Assembly: GCF_002222595.2 (NCBI RefSeq)
Contig: NZ_CP022413.2
Span: 2,627,501 to 2,691,500, forward strand
Source: Blautia hansenii DSM 20583
GTDB lineage: Bacteria > Bacillota > Clostridia > Lachnospirales > Lachnospiraceae
Length of the DNA stretch: 64,000 nucleotides
Direction: 5' to 3'
Shown: positions 13,570 through 39,178 of the stretch, one piece after another
How the letters are laid out: each line of letters begins with the position of its first letter
Numbering within the stretch: the first letter of the stretch is position 1
The notes under the pieces: model-generated
The model's database searches: none
Told to the model about the DNA's origin: nothing
Seen by the model: only the letters and a program-made list of their open reading frames with translations
Program-made: the position numbers and the translations under genes

Positions 13570-13595
13570 TCAAAGCCACCACTATCTGGCTATAT

Positions 13596-14109: not shown

Positions 14110-14461
14110 TGGCTCCGGGTTCAAAAAAGTATATCTGGCGACTGGATTTACGGATCTGCGCAGAGGGATCGATGGCTTGGCCAGAATCATACGTTTTCAG
14201 TTCCAGCTTGATCCTTACGATAAGAATACATTATTCTTATTTTGCGGCAAACGTACAGATCGGATAAAAGGGCTTATCTGGGAGGGCGATGGATTTCTAC
14301 TTCTGTACAAGCGGATTGAAAACGGAAACTTCTGCTGGCCCCGTACACAAGAAGAAGCACTGGAAATTAGTGCAGACCAGTATCAAATGTTAATGCAAGG
14401 TCTGGAAATCGTTGCCAGACATCCCATAGAAGAAATCTCCTGTCCAGAATTCTCCTTGTGA
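14099..14461 (+). CDS. tnpB: IS66 TnpB accessory protein
   Basis: A 120-residue IS66 Orf2 protein with the family sequences VYLATGFTDLRRGIDGLARI, FCGKRTDRIKGLIWEGDGF, and then LLYKRIENGNFCWPR. The length is normal and the frame is intact. It overlaps the end of tnpA, implying translational coupling. It is required for transposition together with TnpA and TnpC, with an unknown biochemical role. Confidence 0.93.
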   Translation: MLNDGSGFKKVYLATGFTDLRRGIDGLARIIRFQFQLDPYDKNTLFLFCGKRTDRIKGLIWEGDGFLLLYKRIENGNFCWPRTQEEALEISADQYQMLMQGLEIVARHPIEEISCPEFSL

Positions 14462-14598
14462 TTTGTGCAAAACGCAGAAAATAAAATTGCTTTCATCCAT
14501 GATAAATCACCCTGTGCAATATAAAATTTAAAGTTATTCACATCCTGAAAGTTTTCTGTGAGTTTCTATATACTCCTGATTCCAAAACTTTTCAGATT

Positions 14599-14665
14599 GT
14601 GGATAACAGTCATAAATATCTGAAATTCAGGCTTTTATTTTCAGGTATTCATGACTGTTATCCAC
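14599..14665. repeat. Long hairpin between tnpB and tnpC
   Basis: GTGGATAACAGTCAT (14599-14613) and its exact complement (14651-14665) form a 15-bp stem around a 37-nt loop with its own CTGAAATTCAG palindrome. The tnpB-tnpC gap here is 286 bp, which seems long for IS66. The hairpin may be a regulatory structure or a small inserted repeat. Confidence 0.5.
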
Positions 14666-14747
14666 TGTCAAAATGACGAAGGTGACAGAATTCAAAAATA
14701 GCCAAAAACCGTTGGTTCCGCTATAATAGCACTCAGGAAAGTGAGGT

Positions 14748-16373: not shown

Positions 16374-16577
16374 ATATCGGTGGCTGCAAAGCAGCCGCCT
16401 AAAAAGAGTGTGTGAAAAATTTTCTGTAATTTCAGATCTTCTATGATAATTGATAGGGCTTGGCGGCAGATTTTGCTGTCAAGCCCTTGGTTAATACATA
16501 TCAAAAATAAGCTGGCATGTCAAGAGCACCCGGAAAAACCGGGTGTTTATTCACTCTTGATATTCCAGCGTTTTTTG
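16374..16577 (+). other. Hairpin-rich gap between tnpC and IS256 fragment
   Basis: No gene is seen. Three stem-loops are present: GGTGGCTGC/GCAGCCGCC (16379-16399), GGGCTTG...CAAGCCC (16456-16486) and CACCCGG/CCGGGTG followed by TTTATT (16527-16545). The last can terminate tnpC transcription. AGAGTGTGTGAAAAATTTTC near 16405 could be an IS256-type terminal repeat, but its partner is missing, so this is uncertain. Confidence 0.45.
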
Positions 16578-17375
16578 TTATTCCGGCATACGATCCGGAT
16601 ACATGATAGCAAGCTCGCCACGTACTTTTCCCCAATTTCGGATTGGCATAGTCCATTTCTTGGCTATTTCAAAAGTTGCCAGATAAAGAGCTTTCAATAA
16701 TGCCTGTGAACTAGGAAATACGCTTCTCTGTCGATTCAAACGGCGATATGACGAATTCAACGACTCTATTGCATTTGTTGTGTAAAAGGCGGTTCTAGTT
16801 TCTTTAGAAAACTTAAAAATCGGTGTTATTGCATCCCAGTTATCATACCAACGTTTCATGGCATTGGGGTATTGCCCCTCCCATTTTTGTTTTACGTTCT
16901 CCAACTGGGTATAGGCACTATTTTCATCAGCCGCTGTGTAGATGGTCTTCAAATCTTTGGCAAACGCCTTCATGTCTTTATTGGCAACGTATTTTAAAGT
17001 ATTTCTTACCATGTGAACGATACATCTTTGTTGCTCTGTTGCTGGGAAGGCTGCTGTGATGGCTTCTTTGATGCCTGTAAGACCATCTGAACATAAAATC
17101 AGAATATCCTTGACCCCACGATTTTTAAGGCTGTTTAAAACACTCAACCAATATTTACTGCTTTCGTTTTCTCCAATAACAATTGTAAGAACTTCTTTTT
17201 TTCCATCTTCATTTATCCCAAGAACAACATATGCTGCTAACTTTCGAATAATCCCATCGTCCCTGACAGAAAAATGCACCGCATCTATAAATACAATTGG
17301 ATAAACGGAGGATAATGGTCTGTTTTGCCATTCCTCAATCTTGGGAAGCAGTTTATCTGTTATGTCTGAAACCAT
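16578..17375 (-). pseudogene. IS256-family (Mutator) transposase, N-terminally truncated
   Basis: The 265 codons match the C-terminal two thirds of an IS256 transposase. ITDKLLPKIEEWQNRPLSSV with VYPIVFIDAVHF (first D), CSDGLTGIKEAI (second D), QRCIVHMVRNTLKYV, FYTTNAIESLNS and RRLNRQRSVFP are all present. The usual first 130-150 residues are absent. An in-frame TAG lies about 10 codons upstream, and 41 bp beyond the first codon the IS66 right inverted repeat begins. An IS256 copy seems to have inserted near the end of IS66 and then lost its 5' part. Confidence 0.85.
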
Positions 17376-17438
17376 TCCTTCGCTGACTTTTTCATAGTCT
17401 CCCTAAAAATGTCAAGGTACTCGCTATTTTGCGTTTAC

Positions 17439-19759
17439 CTATTAATACTATCCTAACACGATTATATCTAACAATGCAGATGCATTTACATTCCAATATG
17501 TTTCTATTAATACAAACTCTTTCTCTACCAAGTTTTATAAGCTTGTCATCATTTACATTCCAATATGTTTCTATTAATACGAAAAACCGTTCGACATTTT
17601 AAGACAGGAGAATATAATTTACATTCCAATATGTTTCTATTAATACCCAATAGTCCAAATAATCTGCAACGGATATTTCTTTATTTACATTCCAATATGT
17701 TTCTATTAATACTGGATTAAATTCGTCAAAGATTATTACCTCAACGTCATTTACATTCCAATATGTTTCTATTAATACTTCCTTACACAAATTTTCACGA
17801 AATGAATTTAGATATTTACATTCCAATATGTTTCTATTAATACGCATAGTACATAGCATTGTCTTCGGCACGCTCCGGAATTTACATTCCAATATGTTTC
17901 TATTAATACGGGCTGGCATGGGCTACCATTTCCTTGTCCGTAAAGAATTTACATTCCAATATGTTTCTATTAATACACTCCGGCAGACGTGATCCGCATG
18001 GAGATGGTTCTACATTTACATTCCAATATGTTTCTATTAATACTGTATGACGAGAAATTGCTTTGCCTGTGATGTTTGTAATTTACATTCCAATATGTTT
18101 CTATTAATACTGGACTTTACCACTTTAAAGAGCCATATTATTCTTGTATTTACATTCCAATATGTTTCTATTAATACATTGACACACCGCTCTCTGTTGT
18201 TAATGATTTCTTATTTACATTCCAATATGTTTCTATTAATACAGATAGTGTCTAAAATTTCAAAAGTCTTATCAAAGCATTTACATTCCAATATGTTTCT
18301 ATTAATACTAAATTTCCCTCATAGGCTGCAATACATTTCGTTCTAATTTACATTCCAATATGTTTCTATTAATACCAGCGATTGATGTTTCAGAAGAAAA
18401 TCTTCAAATGCATTTACATTCCAATATGTTTCTATTAATACTTACAAAGAGTGTTTCAATTACGAATAGGAGACAGATTTACATTCCAATATGTTTCTAT
18501 TAATACTTCAGAGAGGGGGTCGTACAGAGTGAAGATAACCTTGATTTACATTCCAATATGTTTCTATTAATACTAAAATGCTTTCGATTGCCTCATTCTT
18601 TGTCATTGATTTACATTCCAATATGTTTCTATTAATACTATTCTGTCCCTGGAAGGTATCAAGATAATATTTCATTTACATTCCAATATGTTTCTATTAA
18701 TACACAGATATTTCGTTTTCTGATGTCAGCACGGTTGTATTTACATTCCAATATGTTTCTATTAATACCAGACCTTAAAAAAGCGTAAACCTATTATAAT
18801 TTGATTTACATTCCAATATGTTTCTATTAATACCCAGAGAATGAATGTTGGTGCACCGATTGACACTGATTTACATTCCAATATGTTTCTATTAATACTA
18901 CGAAATCGTATGAGATATTTATATAATGCTTATGTATTTACATTCCAATATGTTTCTATTAATACCAGAAGAAGAAATTACAGAAGTAAACAATTATGTA
19001 AAATTTACATTCCAATATGTTTCTATTAATACTAAAAAATCGATTATGGATGAGTTTAATACTCTCGTATTTACATTCCAATATGTTTCTATTAATACTA
19101 AAAAATCGATTATGGATGAGTTTAATACTCTCGTATTTACATTCCAATATGTTTCTATTAATACTAAGTCGTCCGGCGTTTACAACGTCTTGCGGATATT
19201 CATTTACATTCCAATATGTTTCTATTAATACCTGTATCCGCCTCACGGTTCTTGATATTTTCCTCATTTACATTCCAATATGTTTCTATTAATACAGGTG
19301 TACGGCGATGCTGAGGTGTACGGCGATGCTATTTACATTCCAATATGTTTCTATTAATACCGGCGGCACAGGAAACAGAAGCAGACAAGGTATCCGATTT
19401 ACATTCCAATATGTTTCTATTAATACAATTAGTAATTTTTGTCAAAACCCACCAATAAAACGGATTTACATTCCAATATGTTTCTATTAATACTCCGTGT
19501 TCTTCACATTTCTCCTTTCTCGTACACTCATTTACATTCCAATATGTTTCTATTAATACAGCAGACGTACTGTTTTCTACTTTTTCAGCATTTTCATTTA
19601 CATTCCAATATGTTTCTATTAATACCAAAACGGCTGAATTTCCATACTAAAATCACATCAAAATTTACATTCCAATATGTTTCTATTAATACGGATGGTA
19701 GCAGTAAAATTTTCTGTATTAAGATACCAATTTACATTCCAATATGTTTCTATTAATAC
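17439..19759 (-). CRISPR. Type I-B CRISPR array, 35 intact repeats plus one split terminal repeat
   Basis: The 30-bp repeat reads ATTTACATTCC...CTATTAATAC on the plus strand (first intact copy 17484-17513, last 19730-19759). All 35 copies look identical, with 34 spacers of about 35-37 nt between them. A 35th spacer (17449-17483) precedes the first intact copy and follows the split terminal repeat remnant 17439-17448. crRNA sense is the minus strand (GTATTAATAG...ATGTAAAT), inferred from the cas2-proximal leader and the degenerate distal repeat. One repeat-spacer unit is duplicated (spacers 19033-19068 and 19099-19134 are identical). Confidence 0.98.
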
Positions 19760-19924
19760 CCGTTTCTCATACATGCTTATATTTCAATACCTTACAATAT
19801 CATTTTTGTCTACCTAAACAACTTTCCACATATTCTTTTACTATTTCCCTGAGAACTGCTGTCTCAGCCCTCATATTTCGTACTGTCGACCTCTACTATT
19901 TTTTACATTATTACAAGTCGACAA
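19760..19924 (-). promoter_or_regulatory. CRISPR leader
   Basis: 165 AT-rich bases between the cas2 stop and the newest repeat, on the side opposite the degenerate terminal repeat. It contains paired GTCGAC sites (19884-19889 and 19916-19921) and a short GAGAA/TTCTC-type hairpin near 19850. Leader identity is inferred from position; the promoter elements are not distinct. Confidence 0.7.
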
Positions 19925-20203
19925 TTACAACATAAACCCCGTCTTATCCTCCTCTTTTCCCCAAAATTCCTTATCAAGCCACTTCTCCTGCCTGCTTTTA
20001 AACACAAGTACCGAATCTAGTTCTTCATTAATATACGGCTTCAATTCCTTCTGCAATTTCATTAATTGTACTTTAGAAATCTCACCTTCAAATACAGAAT
20101 TTTGTACATGTGATAAATATTTTTTACACGTTTTAAAAACATGAGACCAACGCTTTTGTCCATTATCTGTTTTACTAATATCATACACCAAAACTACATA
20201 CAT
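19925..20203 (-). CDS. cas2: Cas2, adaptation endonuclease-fold protein
   Basis: A 92-residue Cas2, partner of Cas1 in spacer integration. The start is placed at the ATG giving MYVVLVYDIS (20203) rather than 14 codons upstream, because this is the ferredoxin-fold first strand of Cas2 and GGTGG of the cas1 end serves as ribosome site. Other segments are KRWSHVFKTCKKYLSHVQNS and SVFEGEISKVQLMKL. It starts 1 nt after the cas1 stop and is the last gene before the leader and array. Confidence 0.95.
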   Translation of the reverse strand: MYVVLVYDISKTDNGQKRWSHVFKTCKKYLSHVQNSVFEGEISKVQLMKLQKELKPYINEELDSVLVFKSRQEKWLDKEFWGKEEDKTGFML

Positions 20204-20204
20204 T

Positions 20205-21197
20205 TTACCACCAAATTTTAAAACTTTCGTATTCTTTTTCTTCAATTAAATGTTTTATTAATTTATATGCCTCTAAACGAATCAAATATTGATAAGATAC
20301 CTGTTTCCCCAATTCTTTATGCATAATCGTAGTTTTTAACTTATTTTCAAGTTCAGTTACAATTAGCTTGGATGCTTCTTTCTTCAAATGCAAGAAATTC
20401 AATTCTTTTGTAAAACTTTCCTCTGTTATTTGCCTACGATTTAGCAAGGAAAAAATTAGTCTATCCCCTATTAACGGTTTAAATACTTCTGCCAAATCTA
20501 AGCATAATGAATATCTCCGAAATCCAGGCTCATGCAAATAACTAATTGTCGGATTTAACTGTGTGTGATAAATCTCACTTAAGGTTTTAGAATAAATCAA
20601 TGAATTGACAAATGAAATCAAAGAATTAATCATATTATTCGGTGGATGCATAACTCTTTTTTCAAAATTAATTTCCTGATTTACAATAGTATTCCATGCT
20701 GAATAATATTTCCGACGAATATTCCCTTCTATGCCCATTAATTCTTCTATTGTTTCTGCTTTCAATATTCTAGGACGTAAAGAATTTATTTCTTGCATCT
20801 GTTCCACAACATCTTTACCTCTCCCATTATAATACCGTAAATTCCGATAAATATTATCTGCCGCAGCTTCTATAAATTTTTTAGCAATTACTAAGCGTTT
20901 CTCATAATTATTATAATGTTCCACCTGCTTTACTAACAATTGTCCTGCTAATAAACTTTCTTTAGGATAAAAGCTTCCTGTGTAAAAATTATAGTAATTA
21001 AAAAAATGTATTGGAATTCCATATTGGGAAATGTAATTCAAAAAAACTGTATTAAAAGACATTTCTGACATTACATAAATATCTGATATTCTTTCAATTG
21101 GAATATCTCTTTTTTCACCTTCATAAGAAGTAAACTGAAGGGTATTATCTTTTCTTTTCAAATCTCCACTATTATATACATAAAAACTCTGCTTCAT
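20205..21197 (-). CDS. cas1: Cas1, CRISPR integrase
   Basis: A 330-residue Cas1 of the I-B type. The metal-binding residues are E157 (GIEGNIRR), H222 (SYLHEPGFRRYS) and E237 (LDLAEVFKP). The N-terminal beta domain (DIYVMSEMSFNT) and the C-terminal helical domain are complete. With Cas2 and Cas4 it forms the adaptation module that adds new spacers at the leader end. It follows cas4 by 12 nt. Confidence 0.98.
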   Translation of the reverse strand: MKQSFYVYNSGDLKRKDNTLQFTSYEGEKRDIPIERISDIYVMSEMSFNTVFLNYISQYGIPIHFFNYYNFYTGSFYPKESLLAGQLLVKQVEHYNNYEKRLVIAKKFIEAAADNIYRNLRYYNGRGKDVVEQMQEINSLRPRILKAETIEELMGIEGNIRRKYYSAWNTIVNQEINFEKRVMHPPNNMINSLISFVNSLIYSKTLSEIYHTQLNPTISYLHEPGFRRYSLCLDLAEVFKPLIGDRLIFSLLNRRQITEESFTKELNFLHLKKEASKLIVTELENKLKTTIMHKELGKQVSYQYLIRLEAYKLIKHLIEEKEYESFKIWW

Positions 21198-21209
21198 CCC
21201 ATATCCCCT

Positions 21210-21704
21210 TTAAATAAAACATAAATCATGATACGCACATTTTTTACAAACCTTCGTTTCCAGAAATTCCGGTGGTACATTTTGCTTTCTAATTTTACAG
21301 ATTTCCGAAATAATTCCTTCCAGTTTTTTTATATCTTCATCCGCTAATTCTACAATAACATTTTTCTTAAGAAGAGGATAGTCAATTTTCCCTCTAATAT
21401 TTTCAACACCTCTTTGTTTTAAATAATACAAGTAATATTTAACTTGCCAAATTCCCGCCTCTTCTATAGATTTACTCTTTTTTATTTCGTGAAGTTCATG
21501 ATGTTCCTTAATAAAATCAATATTAATCACATTATCAATGTTAATATGCTTTTCGTCTCTCTGATAACTATGTTCGTCCAGCAATTTTCCCAGCATCACA
21601 TTTTCATTCTCTGCCTCCATATTAATTTCATGACAGAAATACCATAATTTTCTTTTACATACAAAATAGTAGTAAATCATTACTCCCGTAATTCGTTCTT
21701 CCAT
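21210..21704 (-). CDS. cas4: Cas4, iron-sulfur nuclease for spacer trimming
   Basis: A 164-residue Cas4. The N-terminal IYYYFVCKRKLWYFCHEI supplies a cysteine and the RecB-like start. The nuclease core includes EAGIWQVKYYLYYLKQRGVE, and the C-terminal KVCKKCAYHDLCFI holds the remaining Fe-S cysteines. Cas4 trims prespacers and helps select the PAM and orientation before Cas1-Cas2 integration. The start ATG at 21704 lies 18 nt after the cas3 stop. Confidence 0.96.
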   Translation of the reverse strand: MEERITGVMIYYYFVCKRKLWYFCHEINMEAENENVMLGKLLDEHSYQRDEKHINIDNVINIDFIKEHHELHEIKKSKSIEEAGIWQVKYYLYYLKQRGVENIRGKIDYPLLKKNVIVELADEDIKKLEGIISEICKIRKQNVPPEFLETKVCKKCAYHDLCFI

Positions 21705-21722
21705 ATAAAAGTTCCTCTTAAA

Positions 21723-24104
21723 TTATATAAAAAATTGCTCGTCCTCAATCTGTTTCAATAGTAAACCGCATCCTTTTCCAGTTTCTCTGTCAAATTCATA
21801 CTTTAAATTTATTCTATGTATATCTAAAATTTTACAATTCCCCTTTTCACCTACAGTTGCAACATCGACTCCCTTCATATTCCCATATCGATTCAAATTT
21901 AAAGTCAAATCATTTAATTTCGCAGTAAACACACTTTTTACATTTCTTCCAATATGTGGACATTCAAGTACTTCTATACTTTTTTCAAATATTATTTGAT
22001 TTTCATCATAAATACTGTCCGGTACTACCGTTATGCTCTGTATATTCCGAAACTTTTCATCTGTTTCCTGTTTGCTATACTCCAAAGGTGTAAGTTCCTC
22101 AAAATGTTTCAAATATTTTTCAATTTCTTTGTAATAAGAAGTATCCATAATTTCTTCTGCACAGTAAACCTGATTAATATAATCTATTTTCTCTTTTTCA
22201 GACAATGTTTTGCCTACATATTGATGTAACTTATCCAAAGAGCGAGAATATAACTCTTTTCCATATACAGACTTATCGCCAACTCCATTCTCATTTGCAT
22301 ACACAATAATATTCGCTTCCTCTGGCTGATATCGTGCTTTTCTATTACACCTTCCCATTCTTTGTAGCAAACTATCTGCGGTACACATTTCTGTATATAA
22401 TATATCAAAATCAATATCTAAACTTGCCTCTACGAGCTGCGTTGTAACCCAAATTCCCGCTACATCTCTATCTTCTGAAAATTGCATAATCATCTTTTCC
22501 AGTTGATTTCTGTCACGTCTAATATATCTGGAATGAAGGAGATGGACTTCCTCTGTCCATTCCTCTAACTCCTTATAAATTTCTTGTGCTTTTGAAACAG
22601 TATTACATATAATCAACACTTTTTTCTCTAAGCCCTGCTCCGCTATTTCATCAATGTCCATTTCTCCATCACGAATATCCACTTTATGCCTTAGCCACTC
22701 AGAGGAATTTGAAAAATCTTGAAACTGATAATTCTCTTCCTTCAATAGTCCGTGTTGTTTCATAAAATGCTCTAAAACAGGAGGAAATGTTGCTGTAATA
22801 ATTGCAAATTTCCCACCCATTGATACAATTTGTTTCAGACCATATATAATAGCCGCAATCACTTGAGGTGAGTACGCTTGTATCTCATCCAATACTATTT
22901 TTGAATATTTTAAAGTTGCCGGAAATATCTCTGTTCCTAAAGCCTTATATACAAACTTAAACAATTGGTCAACTGTACATATAGTCAGTGGATTTGCCAA
23001 TAATTTTGCTCTTTCATACTTTTTATATGTATCCGTATCATCACTTTCTTTCAAATACACTTGCATACTATCTGAATGCAAAAGTGCAACATCTTCATAT
23101 CTATAACGTACCTTTATTCGCTCATAAATTGCATTAGAAGATACTCTTAATGGCAATGTATAAAACCCCTTCTCTCCGTTTAACCATAGAAGTGCGGCTT
23201 CCGTTTTTCCAGAACCAGTAGGTGCAATAACAACCAAATTCTGTTCTACATTCTCTTTCATATATGTCTGCACAGGACGGAGATTATAATTTTTCAATGC
23301 TTCTTCCACGTTCTTTATCAATTCTCTTTTTTCTAAATCCGGATTAATTTCTGCATTTTCGTAGCCTGCACTAACCGTATAATCAAACTTATTCAACATA
23401 CCTTTAATAGTTGAATATAGTACCCATTTCTCCCATTTTATCGGCAGATTTTTACAATTGTTATTATTTCTAAATAACAACTTATTGCGATAGCTGCTAC
23501 GAATCAATACCTTTCCCCTTCCTAGATATTTTTCTAAATGCTCTCTGTAATATTGCTCTGCATATTCTTTTATCTCCGCGCTATCCCATTCATCATTTCG
23601 TGTGTGATGATAATAAACCGCCGTCAAAAACATATCAAAATCCTCTCTCTTAAAGCAATCTGATATCTGTAGAAATTCATCAACAGAAATGGACAGTGCA
23701 CTCAAAAATCCATGAGGAATTTGTTTTTTATTTTTATTATAGCTAGATAGTTCTTCTTTTACCTCTTCATTTACAACTGCTTGAAATAATAAATTAGCTT
23801 TTCCCCAATCATGTATTCTACATGCTTCTATAATCAGCCTCTTTTCCTTTTCTGTAAAATACTGATCATATCTTACAAAAAATCTTTCTGCACATGCTAC
23901 AATATCCTTTTCATGCTCTTTTAGAGTTTTTTGCATTTCTATATTTTCTACATAAATCTTCTCAATTTCATCCTCAAGAATTTTTATTTCCCATTCCTCC
24001 AATTCGCAACTTGAATCTTGTAATATTTTTTGCAATAAGTTTTCAATTTTTTTCTTTTCTCTTTCTGTCTTTCCTTTCTCTTTTGATTTTGCATAATACT
24101 CCAT
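21723..24104 (-). CDS. cas3: Cas3, HD nuclease-helicase
   Basis: A 793-residue fusion of HD nuclease and superfamily 2 helicase. HD motif residues are H98-D99 (RIHDWGKANLLF), IPHGFLSA and VYYHHTRND. The helicase has APTGSGKTEAALLW (Walker A), LDEIQAYSP (DEIQ box), FAIITATFPP, and motif VI QRMGRCNRKARY. It is recruited to the Cascade R-loop and degrades the invader. ATG 24104 follows GGAGGAGTAATATT. Both activities appear intact. Confidence 0.97.
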   Translation of the reverse strand: MEYYAKSKEKGKTEREKKKIENLLQKILQDSSCELEEWEIKILEDEIEKIYVENIEMQKTLKEHEKDIVACAERFFVRYDQYFTEKEKRLIIEACRIHDWGKANLLFQAVVNEEVKEELSSYNKNKKQIPHGFLSALSISVDEFLQISDCFKREDFDMFLTAVYYHHTRNDEWDSAEIKEYAEQYYREHLEKYLGRGKVLIRSSYRNKLLFRNNNNCKNLPIKWEKWVLYSTIKGMLNKFDYTVSAGYENAEINPDLEKRELIKNVEEALKNYNLRPVQTYMKENVEQNLVVIAPTGSGKTEAALLWLNGEKGFYTLPLRVSSNAIYERIKVRYRYEDVALLHSDSMQVYLKESDDTDTYKKYERAKLLANPLTICTVDQLFKFVYKALGTEIFPATLKYSKIVLDEIQAYSPQVIAAIIYGLKQIVSMGGKFAIITATFPPVLEHFMKQHGLLKEENYQFQDFSNSSEWLRHKVDIRDGEMDIDEIAEQGLEKKVLIICNTVSKAQEIYKELEEWTEEVHLLHSRYIRRDRNQLEKMIMQFSEDRDVAGIWVTTQLVEASLDIDFDILYTEMCTADSLLQRMGRCNRKARYQPEEANIIVYANENGVGDKSVYGKELYSRSLDKLHQYVGKTLSEKEKIDYINQVYCAEEIMDTSYYKEIEKYLKHFEELTPLEYSKQETDEKFRNIQSITVVPDSIYDENQIIFEKSIEVLECPHIGRNVKSVFTAKLNDLTLNLNRYGNMKGVDVATVGEKGNCKILDIHRINLKYEFDRETGKGCGLLLKQIEDEQFFI

Positions 24105-24149
24105 AATATTACTCCTCCATTTTCCAAAATGTATCTATTAAATCTTTCT

Positions 24150-25734
<1,585 letters not shown>

Positions 25735-25736
25735 AA

Positions 25737-27422
25737 CTATTTTTCCTCCTTCTTATCTTCTAATTTATTATTCCAACAACTTCCCTTTAGTCCAAGCACA
25801 AATGCATACCCCAACTCTTGAAATACTTCTTTTCCATATAACATATCCACAAATCCATCCGGCATCAATAGTTTCGTAGAACTATACAATCTTATTACAA
25901 TATCTATAAATTTACCCGTATCTTTTACAGACAACGCATTCAAAAGCTGATAAATCGTTCCTCTTAAACAGTCGTCTTTTGTTACTCCTTTAGCTTCCAT
26001 AATAGCTTTTCGTAAATTATAGCCATTATTTCTCATAGTTTTTTGACCCATAGTAATGTTCCTTTCCTTATCTTTTCCACATCTGACAAGTCTCGCCCAT
26101 ACTTGAACAACATATACCCAATATGCAGCAAACAATATTCCCTCATTTTCAATCGCTTCTTTCATCAATCGATTTAATAAAGTATATTGATTTTGATAGT
26201 TTAAAACATTCATAACTACAACCTCATGAACATTAAAAAAATCACCATTTAATTTAATAAACGGATGTTTTCCAAGGTAATTTAATGCATCACTCACTTT
26301 TTCTTTCTCCAGTATAGACAATACTTCCTTTCCAATATTGTTGCAAATGTATTTGTCTTCTGCCTGTATTCCTCTTAATATTACTTGGATATTAGATATC
26401 TCCCTTTTCTTTTCCGAAAGAACTATGTTTAAATTTCGTGAAAACCAAACGGAATATTTTTCTTCCTCTTTCTTTTCAGATAAGAATTTACTCTTACCAC
26501 TCTTTTGATTTGCTGATATTAAACTATGGATACTTTCATTCATATTCAAAAAAACAAATTTATTTGCATATAATTGAAATCCTAATGGGCTTAGAGCATA
26601 CAAATATGCACATACCGGACACAAATATGCATCTACCTTACAGTTCCAGAAAGCTGATTTCTTTCTTGACAAATCATCTGCCATCTCTTTCATAAATGCG
26701 ATAGATACTTTTTCCTTAGAATCCATAGGCATACCACAATCAATACAAAGGTCTTTTGCCTTTTTATGATCGTTCCCCCAATACTTACGAAGTGGTTCAG
26801 AAAATTCTTTCTCAAATAATCCTCGCATATCCTTTTTTGCATTTGCTCGAAGCAAAAAACATTTACCATCCCAAAACCTGTTAATATATGTATATATAAT
26901 ACTTTTCATTGTAAATGTTTCTTTGCATAATGGCTGCACTAAAAATCGTTGAAGCTTCTGTAGCCGCATTTTTAATTCCTGTTGTTCCAACTTATCACTC
27001 AACTTATTCTTCTTTAAATTTAAATATATCTCCACATCCTCAATCTGATCTTTTATATTTTCAAATCCCGCCTGGTAACTATTAGACAACAACTTATCAT
27101 TGATAAATTTAAGATCTTCTTTTATTTCTTTTCCCGGCTTCCATTCTTCTGTTTCTATCTTCTGTAGACAACTGTAGATTTTCTCCAACACTCTCTCATA
27201 AACAGTAAACGGTCCCAAACCTGCAACAAATGCTTTAAAATACATATCTGTCCAGTCTGCTTCTATTGCAAAATCCTTTGCAATCCACAACTCCTGTTCA
27301 TTTTCCGAAATTCCATAATCTATATTATCTCTAGCCGCTGAAATTTCCAGCATATACCACATACCTACAATTCCTGCATTTTTTAAAAAATCACCGGTTG
27401 TAATAACAAAGCGTTCCAACAT
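25737..27422 (-). CDS. cas8b: Cas8b1 (Cst1) large Cascade subunit
   Basis: A 561-residue Cst1-type large subunit that recognises PAM and stabilises the R-loop. The family hallmark is the pair of CxxC motifs: CIDCGMPM, then YLCPVCAYLYALSPLGFQLY after about 45 residues, a probable zinc site. The N-terminus (TTGDFLKNAGIVGMWYMLE) fits the family. The presence of Cst1, Cst2 and Cas5t assigns the system to the Tneap branch of subtype I-B. It lies 12 nt after cas6. Confidence 0.93.
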   Translation of the reverse strand: MLERFVITTGDFLKNAGIVGMWYMLEISAARDNIDYGISENEQELWIAKDFAIEADWTDMYFKAFVAGLGPFTVYERVLEKIYSCLQKIETEEWKPGKEIKEDLKFINDKLLSNSYQAGFENIKDQIEDVEIYLNLKKNKLSDKLEQQELKMRLQKLQRFLVQPLCKETFTMKSIIYTYINRFWDGKCFLLRANAKKDMRGLFEKEFSEPLRKYWGNDHKKAKDLCIDCGMPMDSKEKVSIAFMKEMADDLSRKKSAFWNCKVDAYLCPVCAYLYALSPLGFQLYANKFVFLNMNESIHSLISANQKSGKSKFLSEKKEEEKYSVWFSRNLNIVLSEKKREISNIQVILRGIQAEDKYICNNIGKEVLSILEKEKVSDALNYLGKHPFIKLNGDFFNVHEVVVMNVLNYQNQYTLLNRLMKEAIENEGILFAAYWVYVVQVWARLVRCGKDKERNITMGQKTMRNNGYNLRKAIMEAKGVTKDDCLRGTIYQLLNALSVKDTGKFIDIVIRLYSSTKLLMPDGFVDMLYGKEVFQELGYAFVLGLKGSCWNNKLEDKKEEK

Positions 27423-27434
27423 TTTCCCTCCTTT

Positions 27435-28157
27435 CTACCATATAATTTCAAACTTCCCGTGTCCTTCAGATCTGCGCGTCCCCATTCCTGCTTGGTATAA
27501 CAAATTCAAAAGTTCCGGACTTCCACACAATTTATAAACACCAATGCTAGCATCTACTTTTCTTCCAAAAACATTTACCACAATCTTTTTTCCCTTAATA
27601 GGTAAAATTCCAAATCCATCTGTTGATATCGGGATAGATAACTTCTGCAAAAAGAAATTAATGTTTTCCTTTAATACATTTTCGAATTCTGAGTCATCAC
27701 ATGTATAGTAATAATCTTTATTTGTCTCTACCTCATGCCTTCTTACAATCAAAGAACTTTGTAGCTTAATAATAACTTCTGTTTCTTTGATTTCTCGAAG
27801 TTTTCGCGTCCGAACACTCGTTAATGTCATCGAATTGTTCTTTATCGGATAGTGCTGAAATTTCATCATTTTAAACGAATTAAAAAATAATATCATCTGT
27901 GCCAAATCCGCATTAGAAAAAAACATACTAAACCGAGTCTCTTGAAGCAATATTTTATCATCTTTAAATCTTCCCCCTGGAAGATAATAAGAAAAAGCAA
28001 AAGGTTTAATTACTGACTTTGTCTTATCGTATAATGACTCATATAATTCTGTAGAATAATTACTTGTAGATGCTTTTATAAAGCTAACCAACAAACGATC
28101 TAGCTCCAGCGGAAGTTCCGGTTTTTCTAAAGTGAAGTCTAATTTCAACTGAAACAT
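27435..28157 (-). CDS. cas6: Cas6, CRISPR RNA-processing endoribonuclease
   Basis: A 240-residue Cas6. The C-terminal glycine-rich RNA-binding loop GMGTRRSEGHGKFEIIW is diagnostic, and the RAMP core includes LTSVRTRKLREIKETEVIIK. It cuts pre-crRNA inside the repeat, which should leave the 8-nt handle ATGTAAAT. It is the first gene of the cas operon. ATG 28157 follows GGAGGAGAGAAATT. It could also process the crRNA-like RNA encoded divergently upstream. Confidence 0.95.
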   Translation of the reverse strand: MFQLKLDFTLEKPELPLELDRLLVSFIKASTSNYSTELYESLYDKTKSVIKPFAFSYYLPGGRFKDDKILLQETRFSMFFSNADLAQMILFFNSFKMMKFQHYPIKNNSMTLTSVRTRKLREIKETEVIIKLQSSLIVRRHEVETNKDYYYTCDDSEFENVLKENINFFLQKLSIPISTDGFGILPIKGKKIVVNVFGRKVDASIGVYKLCGSPELLNLLYQAGMGTRRSEGHGKFEIIW

Positions 28158-28195
28158 AATTTCTCTCCTCCTTTCTTTTTTATTTTGTTATGACC

Positions 28196-28251
28196 AGTGT
28201 AGCATATTTTTTACTCATTCGCAACATTTTATTTAAAATCAATTTTAATGG
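28196..28251 (-). promoter_or_regulatory. cas operon promoter with pseudo-spacer target site
   Basis: Minus-strand promoter: TTGCGA (complement of 28219-28224), a 17-bp spacer and TACACT (complement of 28196-28201), giving a 5' leader of about 32 nt. Two bp upstream of the -35 lies the 22-nt site (complement of 28227-28248) starting TTAAAATTGATTTTAAATA. It is preceded on its 5' side by CCA (complement of 28249-28251). It matches the divergent pseudo-spacer at 17 of the first 19 positions. A bound Cascade R-loop here would cover the -35. Confidence 0.8.
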
Positions 28252-28258
28252 TTATATA

Positions 28259-28373
28259 TTGATTTTTTACATTTTTCATAGTATACTTTTGATGGAATAT
28301 ATAACATTTTGGAATGTAAATTTAAAGTTGATATTAAATATTCTAAATAATAGACACATTTTGGAACCACTAC
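28259..28373 (+). ncRNA. CreR-like crRNA-mimic regulatory RNA (promoter plus RNA)
   Basis: Promoter TTGATT (28259-28264), a 17-bp spacer and TATACT (28282-28287); TSS about 28294. The RNA would contain a pseudo-repeat at 28292-28321, whose last 19 positions match the CRISPR repeat at 18 (TTGGAATGTAAAT intact, including the handle ATGTAAAT). Next come a 22-nt pseudo-spacer (28322-28343, starting TTAAAGTTGATATTAAATA) and a second pseudo-repeat at 28344-28373 with 17 of 19 matches over repeat positions 5-23 but a diverged 3' end. The layout is repeat-spacer-repeat in crRNA sense, divergent from cas. No clear terminator is seen. Size and ends are inferred. Confidence 0.8.
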
Positions 28374-28971
28374 ATATATTAAGTATTAGGAAGATTTTCA
28401 TAAAAACAAAAAACTAATCATCGACAAGCAGATTACTAATACGCCATCTTAAAGTATTATTTTTAGTCACCCCCACTGACAATAATCACTACGTTTTGAA
28501 AACAGTTATTATTACTTTAAGCTAAAATCTTATACTCAATCATTCAAACTACAGCTTGTCCGAAACAAAGAGAAGTATATAAATCTTAATTTTGCATATC
28601 TAAAAAATATATATGAACTTGAATAAAGTTAGCTTTTTACCTTTGTCTTATATATAGCAGTTACAAAATTGTATATCAAAAAAAGGAGAGAAATTGATAT
28701 GCTCCGTTTTCTGACCTTTTCATTATTCTGATATCCTCCACTCATGCATAATACTCTATTCCAAAGTGTAGTATCTATCCTACTTTTGTAATCTCAAAAA
28801 TAGTTAAATATGAAACTTTTAATAGAGTTGTATCTCTTAAAAATATACTTTTCTAACAATTTAGTTTGCAACAGAAGAAATTTAGTGTTTCATGAAATTC
28901 GTATATTTCAGAGTCTATTTTTCGGTTATTCGCTCCAAAACTACCAATATATCTTTAATATTCTGTCTTAG
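28374..28971. other. AT-rich region without a convincing gene
   Basis: 600 bp of very AT-rich DNA between the crRNA-like RNA and the transposase remnant. No protein longer than a few codons is convincing. The one notable item is an AAAAAAAGGAGAG ribosome site before a 10-codon frame at 28699-28731. The rest shows no homology I recognise and may be decayed mobile DNA. Confidence 0.5.
28699..28731 (+). CDS. Possible 10-codon mini-ORF with strong ribosome site
   Basis: ATG CTC CGT ... TGA encodes MLRFLTFSLF, 6-7 nt after AAAAAAAGGAGAGAAATTGAT, the strongest plus-strand ribosome site in this gap. No good promoter was found. It may be chance, a truncated gene start, or a tiny regulatory or toxic ORF of the kind seen beside some CRISPR-repeat-like RNAs. 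There is no evidence for function. Confidence 0.2.
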   Translation: MLRFLTFSLF

Positions 28972-29160
28972 GAAATACTACAGCAATCTAAAGAATTAGA
29001 TAAACTTCATTTAGGATGCGATTTTTCCAGTCTTCAATCGTAGGAAGAAACTTATCCGTAACGTCTGAAATAAAACCTTACTCTATTTCAAAACCATAGA
29101 TATATTCACTCATTTCTAAATTCTGTCTGGTCGTCATTCCTTTTACATACATAAAAATAA
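28972..29160 (-). pseudogene. IS256-family transposase remnant
   Basis: The minus-strand translation reads YVKGMTTRQNLEMSEYIYGF, then EIE-stop-GFISDVTDKFLPTIEDWKNR, then a decayed version of the LxEVYPxxYIDAVHF motif with another stop. This is the region just N-terminal to the catalytic core of IS256 transposases. Stops and truncation show a dead fragment. Confidence 0.75.
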
Positions 29161-29231
29161 TCCTTTAATCAATATCTAAAATATTCTTCTGTCATTTGTA
29201 CTCTGTATCCAGATTTCTTTCCTCTTACCAT

Positions 29232-29275
29232 AACAAAAGGTCTCCTTATGATAAAATATTTTATCATAGAAGACC
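29232..29275 (-). terminator. Terminator of the sigma factor gene
   Basis: GGTCT (29239-29243) and AGACC (29271-29275) enclose a perfect 22-bp palindrome starting TATGATAAAATA. On the minus strand TTTTGTT follows, giving a strong rho-independent terminator after the gene ending at 29321. Confidence 0.8.
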
Positions 29276-29320
29276 CTTCATAATATCATGTATCAAAAAA
29301 TCAACTACCAAATAAAATTG

Positions 29321-30970
29321 CTATTCACAAAGCCTTAAATAATCCTTTCCAAAAAATTCAAGATATCCTTCTTCCAATCCTTCTTCCGCAACAATAAATG
29401 TAAAATACACTTCTTTTTCTGAATGTGGTTCTAATCTTACATAATACTTTCCATTATACTTGCTGTCAGAAACTCCTCCTTTAATATCGTATGGCGGTTC
29501 ATTTTCCATAAGTGGGCTGTAAAACACCGGATATACCGGAAGTTCTTCCCACAACTTATCTGTGGTGTTTTGTAATTTCACTGTAACTTCCATCTTCTTC
29601 ACCGGACCATCTATCTTATGTACCTCATCTTCCACCTCAGAAAATGTAATATCCGTCACCTGTAGGCTGCATCCTTTTGCATAATCCGGATACTCTATTT
29701 TTTCTCCCAGAGTAACTTTTTTATTTATAGATTTCTCTTTTTCTCTTTCATAAAAATCATCTTTTTCATAAATTTTTATTTGCTTTCCTATTTCCAATAC
29801 TTCTTCTTTGGGAATAAAGGAAGCTACAAACATCTGCACTACATACCCTTCTTTTTCATAAAACTGAAGCAGACCCCATCGATATCCTGATTCTTCTCCT
29901 CTATCAATCAGCAGTTTTTTTACATTTCCAGTCTGCCAGATTTCACAGGTTTTATATGGAAATTGTTCTTTTTCCATCCATTCATCTACCAAAATTGTAA
30001 TACCATTTGCTCCCCAAACTCCTCCAAAAGAATATTTTCCAAGAGAATATTTTTCTTTTTCCTCATCCCAGACTTCATAACCTTCCGGTAAATACTCAGG
30101 AACAGCAATTACATCAGCACATTCCTTCTTTCTCTCTACTTCCACAAAAATTGTTTGTGCTCCCTCTTCGATTTCTACCTGAATTGCCTCTCCATTTTTC
30201 GTCATTGCATAAACGGTAAAAGAAATTCCTACTACAATTATTACTGCCGCTGCTGCTTGAAGAATTCTTCTAATCACACAGTTATGAAACATTACTTTTT
30301 TCTCTCTATTTGTTTCTGCCAAGGACAATAATCTTTGTTTTTTATTTTGATAATCTTTTGAAAAATCATGTATTTGTTCTTCTTTCCAAAACTGCTCTTC
30401 TTCTATTTCTTGTCCCAGTTTTCCATTATCGGATCTAACTTTTTTTCCTGTTTCATTGTCAAATTCCTCCTCCCATTCTAATCGGTCAGCAATCAGTTTT
30501 CGTGCCCTCTCCAATCTTTTGTTTACATTTCCTTCACTAATTCCTAAAATATTACCTGTCTCTTTTGCTGAAAATCCATAATAGCATCGCAATTTAATGA
30601 TTTCCCTATACTCAGTTGGAACCGCTTGCAATAATCGCTGAAGGAACTCTCTGTCCTCTACGGATTTTATAAATGTACTTGTCTCTTCTCCACATTTCCC
30701 CTGTTCAGACAGCCATTCATTCTGTTTATTGTTCCTGCGATACTGATCAATTGCTGTGTTTCGAACTATTTTTAAAACAAGTTTTTGTGTTTTTGGACTA
30801 TCGGGAGCATCAATCTCCGGTAAATATTTCAAAAGTTTCTCAAAACTATCCTGCACCGCATCCTCTGCCTGTTCCTTGTTATGAAGAACCCCATAGGCAA
30901 CCCGATACATTCCCTGCTCATACAATTCATACATGGTTTCCAGCAGGATTTTAAATCCATTCTTTTCCAA
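29321..30970 (-). CDS. ECF-type sigma factor fused to a membrane-anchored sensor-like domain
   Basis: A 549-residue protein. Residues about 19-82 are sigma region 2 (NKEQAEDAVQDSFEKLLKYL, NTAIDQYRRNNK) and 108-160 region 4 (YREIIKLRCYYGFSAKETGN, ILGISEGNVNKRLERARKLI). A charged linker leads to one membrane helix (about 235-256, ILQAAAAVIIVVGISFTVYA) and about 290 extracytoplasmic residues resembling the DUF4367-type parts of Firmicute anti-sigma proteins (ADVIAVPEYLPEGYEVWDEE). Usually the two halves are separate genes. The start is a TTG at 30970 after GGAGGTGAGAAACC. It probably senses an envelope signal through an intramolecular anti-sigma. Confidence 0.85.
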   Translation of the reverse strand: MEKNGFKILLETMYELYEQGMYRVAYGVLHNKEQAEDAVQDSFEKLLKYLPEIDAPDSPKTQKLVLKIVRNTAIDQYRRNNKQNEWLSEQGKCGEETSTFIKSVEDREFLQRLLQAVPTEYREIIKLRCYYGFSAKETGNILGISEGNVNKRLERARKLIADRLEWEEEFDNETGKKVRSDNGKLGQEIEEEQFWKEEQIHDFSKDYQNKKQRLLSLAETNREKKVMFHNCVIRRILQAAAAVIIVVGISFTVYAMTKNGEAIQVEIEEGAQTIFVEVERKKECADVIAVPEYLPEGYEVWDEEKEKYSLGKYSFGGVWGANGITILVDEWMEKEQFPYKTCEIWQTGNVKKLLIDRGEESGYRWGLLQFYEKEGYVVQMFVASFIPKEEVLEIGKQIKIYEKDDFYEREKEKSINKKVTLGEKIEYPDYAKGCSLQVTDITFSEVEDEVHKIDGPVKKMEVTVKLQNTTDKLWEELPVYPVFYSPLMENEPPYDIKGGVSDSKYNGKYYVRLEPHSEKEVYFTFIVAEEGLEEGYLEFFGKDYLRLCE

Positions 30971-31063
30971 GGTTTCTCACCTCCCTGTTTTTGTCTTTCA
31001 TAAAATATAACGAATGTTTGAAGGAAAATCTGACAACAATATCCTACCATTTTCTTGTCACCA

Positions 31064-31130
31064 GACATAAAAAGAGCCAAGAAAGCCCGTAAAATAGGCA
31101 TTTCTTGGCTCTAATATATTATTCAAACTC
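31064..31130. repeat. Left attachment repeat (displaced guaA 3' end and terminator)
   Basis: A 67-bp sequence identical to 39112-39178. On the minus strand it contains GAGTTTGAATAA (last guaA codons and stop) and the hairpin AGAGCCAAGAAA/TTTCTTGGCTCT with a T tract. It marks the left end of the integrated element. Similarity continues weakly for about 10 bp outside (TTGTCA-C-GACATAAAA). Confidence 0.93.
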
Positions 31131-31175
31131 GCAAAGTTCTATCTGCTTTGCAGTGTTTCTCTGGTGTTTCAGTCT

Positions 31176-31203
31176 CAAAACAGTTCATTTATGAACTGTT
31201 TTG
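31176..31203. promoter_or_regulatory. Perfect palindrome near left end of element
   Basis: CAAAACAGTTCAT (31176-31188), TT, then ATGAACTGTTTTG (31191-31203). The half-site GAACTGTTT recurs in the regulator promoter at 38575. It could be an operator of the element's XRE repressor or a terminator-like hairpin. Apart from this palindrome and the arm-like site, the stretch 31131-31341 holds nothing recognised. Confidence 0.5.
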
Positions 31204-31341
31204 TATGGTTTCTCTATGTTTTCATCTAATTGTATTGTCATTTTATTGTCAGTAATATGCTATATATTTCAATAACTAATAGTCTTAAATACTATAATAC
31301 CTATAAAGCACTTCAATCCCCCTACAAACTGGAATTTCATA

Positions 31342-31704
31342 CTATCCCCAAAATATACCTGCTAAAATAGCAAGTGTAAGTCCTACTACTCCAATAACAC
31401 AAAATATGTTTATAACTGTTTTTATTGTTGATTTTGCAGAACTTATATCCTCATAAATAGAAGATAGTTGTTTTTCACTTAAATTTTTACTTCTAACGTC
31501 TTGTACATCAATATCCTTTACAAGTGCGTCAAGTGATAATCCAAAATAATCACTCAACAAAACAAGTCTTTGAAAATCGGGATAACTTTGAGCCAGCTCC
31601 CACTTAGATATTGTTTGTCTTGATACACCTAATGCATTACCAAGTTCATCTTGTGATAAACCTTTTGACTTACGAAGCTCTATGAGTTTTTCATTAAAAT
31701 TCAT
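31342..31704 (-). CDS. XRE-family regulator with C-terminal membrane helix
   Basis: A 120-residue protein. The N-terminal HTH (LRKSKGLSQDELGNALGVSR, QTISKWELAQSYPDFQRLV) is typical of Cro/C1 regulators. After a linker, one hydrophobic helix (VINIFCVIGVVGLTLAILAG) ends the protein, so it may be membrane tethered. It is the leftmost gene of the integrated element. The target is unknown. Confidence 0.88.
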   Translation of the reverse strand: MNFNEKLIELRKSKGLSQDELGNALGVSRQTISKWELAQSYPDFQRLVLLSDYFGLSLDALVKDIDVQDVRSKNLSEKQLSSIYEDISSAKSTIKTVINIFCVIGVVGLTLAILAGIFWG

Positions 31705-32073
31705 ACTTTATTCCTCCTACTGATTTCTATTTTTGTAATTCAATTATAGAAAACAATATACTTTATAGCAACCAACTACCGTTGGCAATTCGTCAACCTT
31801 AGATAACATCACGAAAAACTTCTAATTTGTCGCTTTCACCATACCCATATTATAACAGTTCCATATATCCGCTACAATGAAAATCTATTCAGCAATACTA
31901 TTTCTTCTGCTGTCCCTGCGGAGCGTAGTTCTTGTCGCTGGCTCTGATACGGTGTCCTTTATCCCAAACCATGCACATAAATCAATCACTCCTTTCTGGG
32001 TATGAAAAAACAGTCAATCCTAAGACTAACTGCTTTGTGTGTATGGATATGAAGTTTTCAAACTGGGCGTTTA
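31705..32073. other. Intergenic stretch in the element
   Basis: 369 bp with no sizeable gene. It includes one 26-codon minus-strand frame (31898-31978) with a ribosome site, described separately. The rest is unassigned and is probably the promoter region of the XRE gene plus gene debris. Confidence 0.5.
31898..31978 (-). CDS. 26-residue ORF, possible gene remnant
   Basis: MCMVWDKGHRIRASDKNYAP then QGQQKK, preceded by AGAAAGGAGTGATTGATTT. The ribosome site is good but the peptide is short and matches no family I know. It may be a truncated accessory gene of the element. Confidence 0.35.
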   Translation of the reverse strand: MCMVWDKGHRIRASDKNYAPQGQQKK

Positions 32074-32394
32074 TTATTTCTTCTTTTTCGGTTTTGAATT
32101 TGGTAACTCATCATACATAGCATTAAATAATCCTGCTAAAAATTCCTTATTATCAACTTCATCTACCAACAACATTTCTTTTGCTCCCTCATAGGGTAAT
32201 TCATACGGAGCTGTCGGCATATAACTAATTGCCGATTTCACTGGTTTAACAAGCAATCTATCATCATAGATACCACCTACAATCTTGCCACGATAATAGA
32301 TAATAAATTCTCCCATCATAGCTCGATAAGTAATTTCTTCTAACTCAGATAACTGCCCTAAAATAAACTCTAAATATTCCTTGCTTGATGCCAT
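32074..32394 (-). CDS. TfoX N-terminal domain protein
   Basis: A 106-residue single-domain protein. ITYRAMMGEFIIYYRGKIVG, GGIYDDRLLVKPVKSA and YPYEGAKEM-like LPYEGAKEMLLVDEVDNKEF match the TfoX_N domain, first known from the Haemophilus/E. coli competence regulator TfoX/Sxy. Stand-alone TfoX_N proteins are common in Firmicutes and have no established role. The lysine-rich end (SKPKKKK) may bind nucleic acid. It is carried as cargo in the integrated element. Confidence 0.85.
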   Translation of the reverse strand: MASSKEYLEFILGQLSELEEITYRAMMGEFIIYYRGKIVGGIYDDRLLVKPVKSAISYMPTAPYELPYEGAKEMLLVDEVDNKEFLAGLFNAMYDELPNSKPKKKK

Positions 32395-32429
32395 ATTTCC
32401 ACCTCAAATTCCAGTTTATATCGCTTCTC

Positions 32430-32573
32430 TCAGTCTAAATGTCCCATTAGCTTGCAAACCATTCTTTTAATTCTTACAATAATTCCTCCAACACCTCCCA
32501 GTCTTGATAATAAGATGCCGAGCACAAAAAATATCACTATAACAGTAGCCATATCCAAATAATTTTCACCCAT
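32430..32573 (-). CDS. 47-residue membrane protein
   Basis: MGENYLDMATVIVIFFVLGI then LLSRLGGVGGIIVRIKRMVC and KLMGHLD. One N-terminal membrane helix and a basic tail, with ribosome site AAAGGAG 8 nt upstream of the ATG. It lies 26 nt after the DUF2500 gene on the same strand and may be cotranscribed. Function unknown. Confidence 0.6.
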   Translation of the reverse strand: MGENYLDMATVIVIFFVLGILLSRLGGVGGIIVRIKRMVCKLMGHLD

Positions 32574-32599
32574 ATTTTTTCTCCTTTACAACTTCAAAT

Positions 32600-32968
32600 T
32601 TATCGTTCAAACGACAAATATCTCGTTCCTTGAAAAGTCAGTCTGCCAGTATCACCTTCTACAAGCATTCCATATTCTGTTCCAGAAACGCAAAGCTCTA
32701 TTCTGTCTCCACTTTCCACCTGAAATGTCACATAATATGAAGTGCTTGTTGTAGTATGGAATCCGTGTGCACCGCTCGAATCACCTGCATTTGCATGTTG
32801 ATGATGTGTAATGTTTTCTCGCTTTGCAACAACGACAACTGGCACTGTTAATCTAGGTGACTGATTATTCTTATTCCATGTGATAATTCCCTGCACCAAA
32901 GAGAAAATAATAATACCAACCACAATAATAAACATGACTGGAAACATAACGTTTATCAACTCAAACAT
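32600..32968 (-). CDS. DUF2500 family membrane-anchored protein
   Basis: A 122-residue protein with an N-terminal membrane helix (FPVMFIIVVGIIIFSLVQGI) and a beta-rich soluble domain (VPVVVVAKRENITHHQHANA, TSTSYYVTFQVESGDRIELC, VSGTEYGMLVEGDTGRLTFQ GTRYLSFER), matching DUF2500/YhhM. The frame opens 22 codons earlier, but the ATG giving MFELINVMF is chosen because GAGGAGGG lies 8 nt before it. Function unknown; cargo of the element. Confidence 0.8.
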   Translation of the reverse strand: MFELINVMFPVMFIIVVGIIIFSLVQGIITWNKNNQSPRLTVPVVVVAKRENITHHQHANAGDSSGAHGFHTTTSTSYYVTFQVESGDRIELCVSGTEYGMLVEGDTGRLTFQGTRYLSFER

Positions 32969-33051
32969 CTCAAACACCCTCCTCGTATCACCAGATTTTT
33001 TTGTTTTGACAATTTCATATTTATCACTTGTCATATAAACTGAGAGTTATC

Positions 33052-33564
33052 TTACATATCTTTCATAATCAAAATAGTTCCTAAAATATATCCGCAATCC
33101 CATTCATTAAATATTTCATTATCATAGTGAAAACAAGGGTGTTTAAATACAATACCAGCACCAATTCCATTGTCAAATGTCTTTAGGTAATCTTCATCAT
33201 TAGAAGATAGAACTTTTATAGACTCTGGGAATTTTTTCCCAAAGACCTCTTCATCACTATAAATATCCTTTTGATACTTAGGCAATGCTAATATTTTACC
33301 TCTTATAAAAAAATTAACTGTCATTCTGTATATTTTAGAAGCAGGTGTTTCTTCATCTTTTGGAATATCATAAATAGTTTTATCAACATCTATCTTAGTT
33401 AAATCAACTCCCAAGGAATTAAAAAATTGTTGTTGTTCTAATGATAGATTTTCTATAAACTCCATATTAGCTGTTTTATCAGTAGAATAATCAACTTCTT
33501 TATATAATTGTTTTGTTAAGTCAATATCAACATTTAATTGCCAAGGATTAAAATCAAAAATCAT
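33052..33564 (-). CDS. Unknown 170-residue protein
   Basis: An acidic soluble protein with no signal peptide or membrane helix. Segments include FDFNPWQLNVDIDLTKQLYK, IYRMTVNFFIRGKILALPKY and FKHPCFHYDNEIFNEWDCGY. It has a good ribosome site (GGAGGTGACATTAGC) before the ATG at 33564. I do not recognise a family. Size and setting would suit an immunity or accessory protein of a mobile element, but nothing in the sequence proves it. Confidence 0.7.
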   Translation of the reverse strand: MIFDFNPWQLNVDIDLTKQLYKEVDYSTDKTANMEFIENLSLEQQQFFNSLGVDLTKIDVDKTIYDIPKDEETPASKIYRMTVNFFIRGKILALPKYQKDIYSDEEVFGKKFPESIKVLSSNDEDYLKTFDNGIGAGIVFKHPCFHYDNEIFNEWDCGYILGTILIMKDM

Positions 33565-39058: not shown

Positions 39059-39111
39059 AAAGAAATTATTTACAATAATATTAAAAAAGTATTGTCATTT
39101 GATTGTCAACG

Positions 39112-39178
39112 GACATAAAAAGAGCCAAGAAAGCCCGTAAAATAGGCATTTCTTGGCTCTAATATATTATTCAAACTC
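39112..39178 (-). repeat. Right attachment repeat and active guaA terminator
   Basis: Identical to 31064-31130 (67 bp). It includes the last three guaA codons and stop (GAGTTTGAATAA) and, on the minus strand, the hairpin AGAGCCAAGAAA/TTTCTTGGCTCT followed by TTTTTATG, a rho-independent terminator. Integration therefore restored the guaA end with an element-borne copy. Confidence 0.93.

Follow-up and report, generated by a model that had tools for sequence, protein, structure and literature searches.

A two-repeat CRISPR unit divergent from the type I-B cas operon of Blautia hansenii very probably encodes a CreR-type RNA aimed at the cas promoter

Why a pair of degenerate CRISPR repeats should lie between the canonical array's own cas operon and its upstream flank, facing away from cas6, is the question raised by the stretch of the Blautia hansenii genome analysed here (64,000 nt, hereafter the window). 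An earlier note made from the letters had read this interval as a crRNA mimic that represses the cas promoter. Such RNAs, named CreR, were reportedly described by Liu et al. 2023 (Cell Host Microbe 31:1481). Overall, comparison of the window with related loci indicated that the interval very probably encodes a CreR-type RNA that guides Cascade to the cas promoter and lowers cas transcription.

The window contained a complete type I-B system on the minus strand in the order cas6-cas8b-cas7-cas5-cas3-cas4-cas1-cas2, running from 28157 down to 19925. The genes were cas6 (27435-28157), cas8b (25737-27422), cas7 (24859-25734), cas5 (24150-24884), cas3 (21723-24104), cas4 (21210-21704), cas1 (20205-21197) and cas2 (19925-20245). 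The canonical CRISPR array followed cas2 on the same strand at 17484-19830 (upper end approximate) with 34 spacers counted, each of 34-37 nt. Its repeat in crRNA sense was GTATTAATAGAAACATATTGGAATGTAAAT, the 3' end of which is the 8-nt handle ATGTAAAT. Two adjacent repeat-spacer units of the array (19003-19134) were identical and thus represent a duplicated spacer. Past the distal array end, a lone degenerate repeat was found at 13596-13625, separated from the array by IS66-type and Mutator-type transposase genes (14748-17375); these insertions may have split the array end. On the other side of the operon, 83-nt direct repeats with 95% identity were located at 31048-31130 and 39096-39178, one copy overlapping the end of a gene which we take to be guaA. 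Genes for a phage-type integrase, a Mob/Pre recombinase, an AAA ATPase and an HTH protein were present between them, and the stretch bounded by these repeats looks like an integrated mobile element.

The mini-CRISPR itself was a two-repeat unit on the plus strand, divergent from cas6 and outside the canonical array. Pseudo-repeat 1 (28292-28321) kept 18 of the last 20 repeat bases including the whole handle ATGTAAAT at 28314-28321. The guide, or pseudo-spacer, of 22 nt followed at 28322-28343, and pseudo-repeat 2 (28344-28373) kept the middle of the repeat and lost the handle. These coordinates, as claimed in the earlier note, were verified, and so was its claim that the handle is full in the first pseudo-repeat and lost in the second (7/7 handle bases compared with 2/7). 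A transcript start near 28294 and a Cas6 cut before 28314 are predicted. The repeat core CATNNTGGAATGTAAA occurred without mismatches 36 times in the genome, namely in 35 array copies and in the mini-CRISPR copy. When one or two mismatches were allowed, 55 further genome matches were obtained (four of them with one mismatch) against 34 for the reversed pattern. No terminator was found downstream of the mini-CRISPR in the window. An Rfam search of positions 13000-33000 gave three matches to microRNA models only, all below the gathering scores and none at the mini-CRISPR.

The guide matched the minus strand read from 28248 to 28227, which places the protospacer on the cas6 strand. Alignment confirmed the match proposed earlier, with 17 of the first 19 positions paired and mismatches at positions 6 and 12 and then at 20-22. 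The trinucleotide CCA adjoined this site at 28249-28251 of the minus strand as the PAM. The cas promoter was recognised by sequence on the minus strand with a -35 of TTGCGA (28219-28224), a -10 of TACACT (28196-28201) and a spacing of 17; the gap between the 22-nt protospacer and this -35 was 2 bp, in agreement with the distance previously stated. The mini-CRISPR promoter on the plus strand comprised TTGATT (28259-28264) and TATACT (28282-28287), also with a spacing of 17. Sequence and spacing of this divergent promoter were likewise as described before, and the match taken alone is weak because a consensus scan of the region found 9 promoter-like sites, TTGATT-17-TATACT included, when 4.8 were expected from shuffles. 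A search of the 3.07-Mb genome with the PAM-plus-guide pattern returned a single zero-mismatch place, the site at the cas6 promoter, and the next best places had two mismatches. None of 1500 shuffled guides matched the upstream region of the window equally well.

For comparison across genomes, cas6 relatives were collected from 195 nearby genomes (15 with a match), 397 genomes of the family (26 with a match) and 392 genomes of the order (21 with a match at E 1e-15), together with two GenBank MAG contigs; the three draws overlap and include the window's own genome. The close set comprised ten loci with cas6 at least 51% identical, counting the window. Nine were evaluable (the window, L020, L021, L040-L044 and L046); in the remaining one, L045, the sequence stops 94 nt upstream of cas6. 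Each of the nine had, upstream of cas6 and divergent from it, a guide between a first repeat with the handle and a second repeat lacking it. The handle was kept at 6-7 of 7 compared bases in pseudo-repeat 1 and at 1-3 of 7 in pseudo-repeat 2 throughout. Guide length was 21-23 nt in seven loci, 29 nt in L043 and 34 nt in L046.

Guides and sites differed from locus to locus, yet each guide fitted its own promoter in all nine loci. The earlier note had named independent drift of guide and promoter site in relatives as the observation that would speak against it, and no such drift was seen, the two being matched in 9/9. Guides matched their own sites at a mean of 15.7 of 18 positions and the sites of other loci at 11.6, and the observed guide-site sum was reached by none of 100000 permutations. 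At positions 1-16 except 6 and 12, 124 of 126 cells matched, compared with a mean of 72.1 and a maximum of 91 in 20000 shuffles. Pairwise target differences at the same positions numbered 244; both guides followed in 229 and did not in 15. Position 17 matched in six loci and positions 18-22 in two to four of the nine. Taken singly, L021 was weak (14/18, equalled by 312 of 1500 shuffled guides) and so was L020 (96 of 1500), while in the other seven loci 0 to 6 of 1500 shuffled guides equalled the own guide. Chance similarity was considered and rejected on the repeat-core count, the single genome site, the shuffled guides and the cross-locus cell match. Because each of the nine evaluable close loci has the element and its guide and site change together, the comparison shows a putative self-regulation of I-B cas genes by a crRNA mimic that is kept by selection.

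Mismatches within positions 1-16 were concentrated, with 10 of the 12 across the nine loci at position 6 or 12 (binomial 4.8e-8, if positions are independent). The pattern fits a Cascade-bound guide with each sixth base flipped out, as described in the accessible part of PMC5904413, where position 6 is also said to be able to matter in initial binding by type I-E. The earlier note had cited positions 6 and 12 as known to be tolerated in type I R-loops, and the 10 of 12 cross-locus mismatches that fall there are in line with this.

The PAM was CCA in six of the close loci and CCT in three. Reading CCA beside the target as an I-B PAM thus held, with CC[A/T] in 9/9 loci and with CCN favoured by phage matches. 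For the latter, the array repeat of L043 was identical to that of the window over 29 consensus bases, and spacers of L043 matched phage DNA. Searches with three arrays matched 9, 11 and 147 phage records, and ten of those listed were analysed. All four matches with at most one mismatch had CCN (CCT, CCT, CCA and CCG). CCN was also found in 5 of 7 matches with two to four mismatches, the seven including one L044 spacer and one repeat of an already counted spacer, and in 1 of 5 with five or six mismatches, where the matches are perhaps not genuine protospacers. For the array of the window itself the phage matches were weak; one of its spacers reached 86-94% in five records (H5-H9). Support for a PAM of CCN thus comes from the phage matches of a same-repeat relative, and this phage-based PAM is drawn from L043 and L044 spacers, not from the window's own array. 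In addition, OR492271.1 (Fusobacterium phage phiFN37) matched the repeats of all three arrays at about 33365-33544 (H1, H10 and H21), and this phage may carry a small array of similar repeats.

The position of the site relative to the promoters was also compared. In 8 of 9 loci a cas -35 could be recognised, with the protospacer end (position 18) between -18 and +8 nt from it. The mini-CRISPR's own -35 was separated from the PAM by anything from 7 to 265 nt, so feedback on the mini-CRISPR's own promoter is not conserved and the cas promoter is the conserved target. In L044, neither a good cas promoter nor a good mini-CRISPR promoter was present, and some 400 nt separated the element from cas6.

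Forty-two loci were scanned by a procedure that requires a recognisable repeat and a CC PAM, and in 16 of them 13 or more of the 14 scored positions matched beside such a PAM. The scan passed over L043, the repeat of which was misread, and L021 was below the cut-off; addition of these two from the guide-site comparison gave 18 of 42 loci with the element. Among the 32 more distant I-B loci there were nine candidates (L050, L052, L053, L055, L056, L059, L062, L080 and L085), their status being set mainly by the first repeat and the guide match. The background rate was 34 in 53008 positions (true hits included), from which about 0.3 would be expected in the 432 candidate positions. L052 and L059 had weak first repeats (10/16), and the predicted mini-CRISPR of L050, L055, L056, L059 and L085 has the orientation of cas6 instead of the opposite one. 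The distant candidates are no argument for the 6/12 pattern because positions 6 and 12 were left out of the score. In 23 of the 32 more distant cas6 loci, several with little upstream DNA, the element was not found by the scan. The cas6 hits of G160, G211 (partial) and G734 (L099) and a second partial hit in G142 (L018) were outside the scan, and L064 was dropped as no cas6 was found.

A mechanism can be proposed from these features. The promoter divergent from cas6 would give a short transcript with two degenerate repeats around the 22-nt guide. Cas6 would cut this transcript so that repeat 1 supplies the Cas5-bound 5' handle and repeat 2 the 3' tag, and Cascade would load the RNA. The complex would then bind at the site adjoining the CCA PAM, a short way upstream of the cas -35, with about 16 positions paired and the sixth and twelfth flipped out. 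Pairing of this length would be too short for Cas3 cleavage, so that only RNA polymerase would be hindered and cas transcription would fall. Repression rather than cleavage is favoured because the guides are mostly short and the pairing ends at about position 16. Canonical crRNAs would compete for Cascade, and cas expression would be expected to rise when crRNAs are abundant or when an anti-CRISPR removes Cascade. Production of the RNA, its cutting by Cas6, its loading and the lowering of cas transcription are what we infer from the sequence. By analogy with reviews of the 2023 CreR work, the locus would tune cas expression to crRNA supply.

The first alternative is a CreA-type antitoxin, in which the guide represses a toxin gene as in CreTA or CrePA and the match to the cas promoter is secondary. 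The anatomy is the same, since CreA RNAs, too, retain the Cas5-binding handle in the first of their degenerate repeats and lack it in the second, according to the available part of PMC9458426. No ORF longer than 75 aa was found in the approximately 0.9 kb beside the mini-CRISPR (28374-29320); an RNA toxin would not show in such a search and could hide there. However, the only zero-mismatch PAM-plus-guide site of the genome is at the cas6 promoter and the guide fits a site upstream of cas6 in all nine evaluable loci, which makes this alternative improbable; the search for a small toxin under the same site covered the ORF list. The toxin-antitoxin reading was thus left unsupported: where CreTA and CrePA have a toxin promoter, the sole zero-mismatch site here is upstream of cas6. 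A Racr-like RNA, which would sequester Cas proteins in inactive complexes and guide nothing, would equally come from a repeat-mimicking RNA gene, but Racrs are solitary repeats in viral genomes, as far as the consulted parts of PMC10651486 and PMC11656645 describe them, whereas the present element has two repeats, is chromosomal, lies beside cas6 and has a conserved guide-target match, so that this role is very improbable. Finally, the element might be left over from an ordinary array that had a self-targeting spacer, and serve no function today. Such decay would account for the degenerate repeats and for the still longer guides of L046 and L043 (34 and 29 nt), but is hardly credible, as neither the 124 of 126 matched cells across differing loci nor the keeping of one handle and loss of the other in 9/9 is expected of decay.

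Within the CreR-type reading, one pair of loci was examined closely. L041 (G483) and L098 (G730) come from two species of one genus and have identical cas6 genes (0 of 717 nt differ). In the stretch of 1305 nt that is bounded by cas6 and includes it the pair had 5 differences, and in about 1080 nt beyond +420 again 5, but the 305 nt from +99 to +403 of the cas6 start codon held 44. Guide and site had changed jointly at positions 5, 7 and 8, and position 6 had changed in the guide alone. Positions 1400-1710 of L098, around the mini-CRISPR and cas promoter, differed from L041 and L149 by 14%, as an island between flanks with at most about 0.5% difference. As a control, 20 kb from the start of a different contig of the second genome were compared with the first genome and gave a single match, of 293 nt at 70%. 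The remainder of the 14-kb contig that carries the locus included a 5.6-kb stretch that was 90% identical, and three intergenic intervals differed by 28.6, 7.5 and 7.8%. The plain reading, a recently exchanged block in which the regulatory island is older or was re-imported, is an adequate explanation because identity falls to about 90% in the adjoining block of the contig.

Viral contigs were also searched for two such repeats with a short gap, and four contigs were found. L101 (2900-3160) and L102 (1520-1780) had a segment in common in which three guides of about 23-25 nt lie between four degenerate I-B-type repeats, with a promoter-like start and a hairpin-like end as read from the sequence. 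Both are phage contigs, and L101 carried terminase genes. Two of the three guides of L101 and L102 were variants of each other. None of the phage guides reached 12/14 beside a CC PAM in 43 cas6 upstream regions. Target searches in viral contigs gave 34 and 7 stretches, which are guessed to be chance. L100 (2690-2800, minus strand) and L103 (4820-4905), both from the viral collection, had two-repeat short-guide mini-CRISPRs with no cas genes beside them in the part read, and L100 also had ordinary bacterial transporter genes.

These observations allow a further, rather doubtful suggestion, that guide and cas-promoter site are inherited together as a specificity cassette that diversifies fast under selection to differ; the reason might be that short-guide mini-CRISPRs of phages could hijack the host Cascade to shut cas promoters. 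It is supported by the divergent intergenic region of L041 and L098 with its joint changes and by the phage guides of L101. It is weakened by the lack of a cas6-upstream match for the phage guides, by the known targets of viral mini-arrays, which are mostly related viruses in the part of PMC11656645 available, and by its dependence on a single pair that recombination can explain.

By anatomy and target, the identification of the window element as a putative CreR is strongly supported, which gives a clear new case, in a gut bacterium, of a recently described form of CRISPR self-regulation. The loci also offer natural pairing rules for non-cleaving binding, namely a CC[A/T] PAM and a paired length of about 16 positions in which the sixth and twelfth are under little constraint. 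Provided that the mechanism holds, cas expression could be raised simply by removing the guide when such native systems serve as tools. No treatment of the element in this clade was recognised among the matches listed from the open-licence literature.

Several known systems resemble the element. Virus-borne mini-arrays and Racrs are likewise small repeat-bearing RNA genes that use host Cas proteins (PMC11656645 and PMC10651486, as far as their available parts go), but they are viral and directed against related viruses or guide-less, whereas the window element is chromosomal and matches the cas promoter. In the type I-B system of Haloarcula hispanica, guides of at most 24 nt repress without interference or primed adaptation according to the part of PMC10989794 consulted, and most of the present guides fall in that range (21-23 nt in 7/9 loci); the shortened spacers were engineered there and are natural here, and two of the nine loci here have longer guides. 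CreA RNAs share the two degenerate repeats, the handle kept in one and lost in the other, and a guide that partly matches a promoter (in the portions available of PMC9458426 and PMC10097628); CreA represses a toxin gene, whereas the site here is the cas promoter and no toxin was seen in the ORF list. The closest likeness is to CreR, which comprises crRNA-like RNAs that repress cas promoters (available parts of PMC12737573, PMC13131331 and PMC12948488) and has been reported for I-B, I-E and V-A systems (PMC13131331, same restriction). Both a mini-CRISPR with degenerate repeats outside the array and a guide with limited complementarity to the cas promoter beside the system's PAM were observed here. 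To this the present analysis adds a test of guide-site co-variation, an end of pairing near position 16, the clustering of mismatches at 6 and 12, and candidates that face either with or against cas6.
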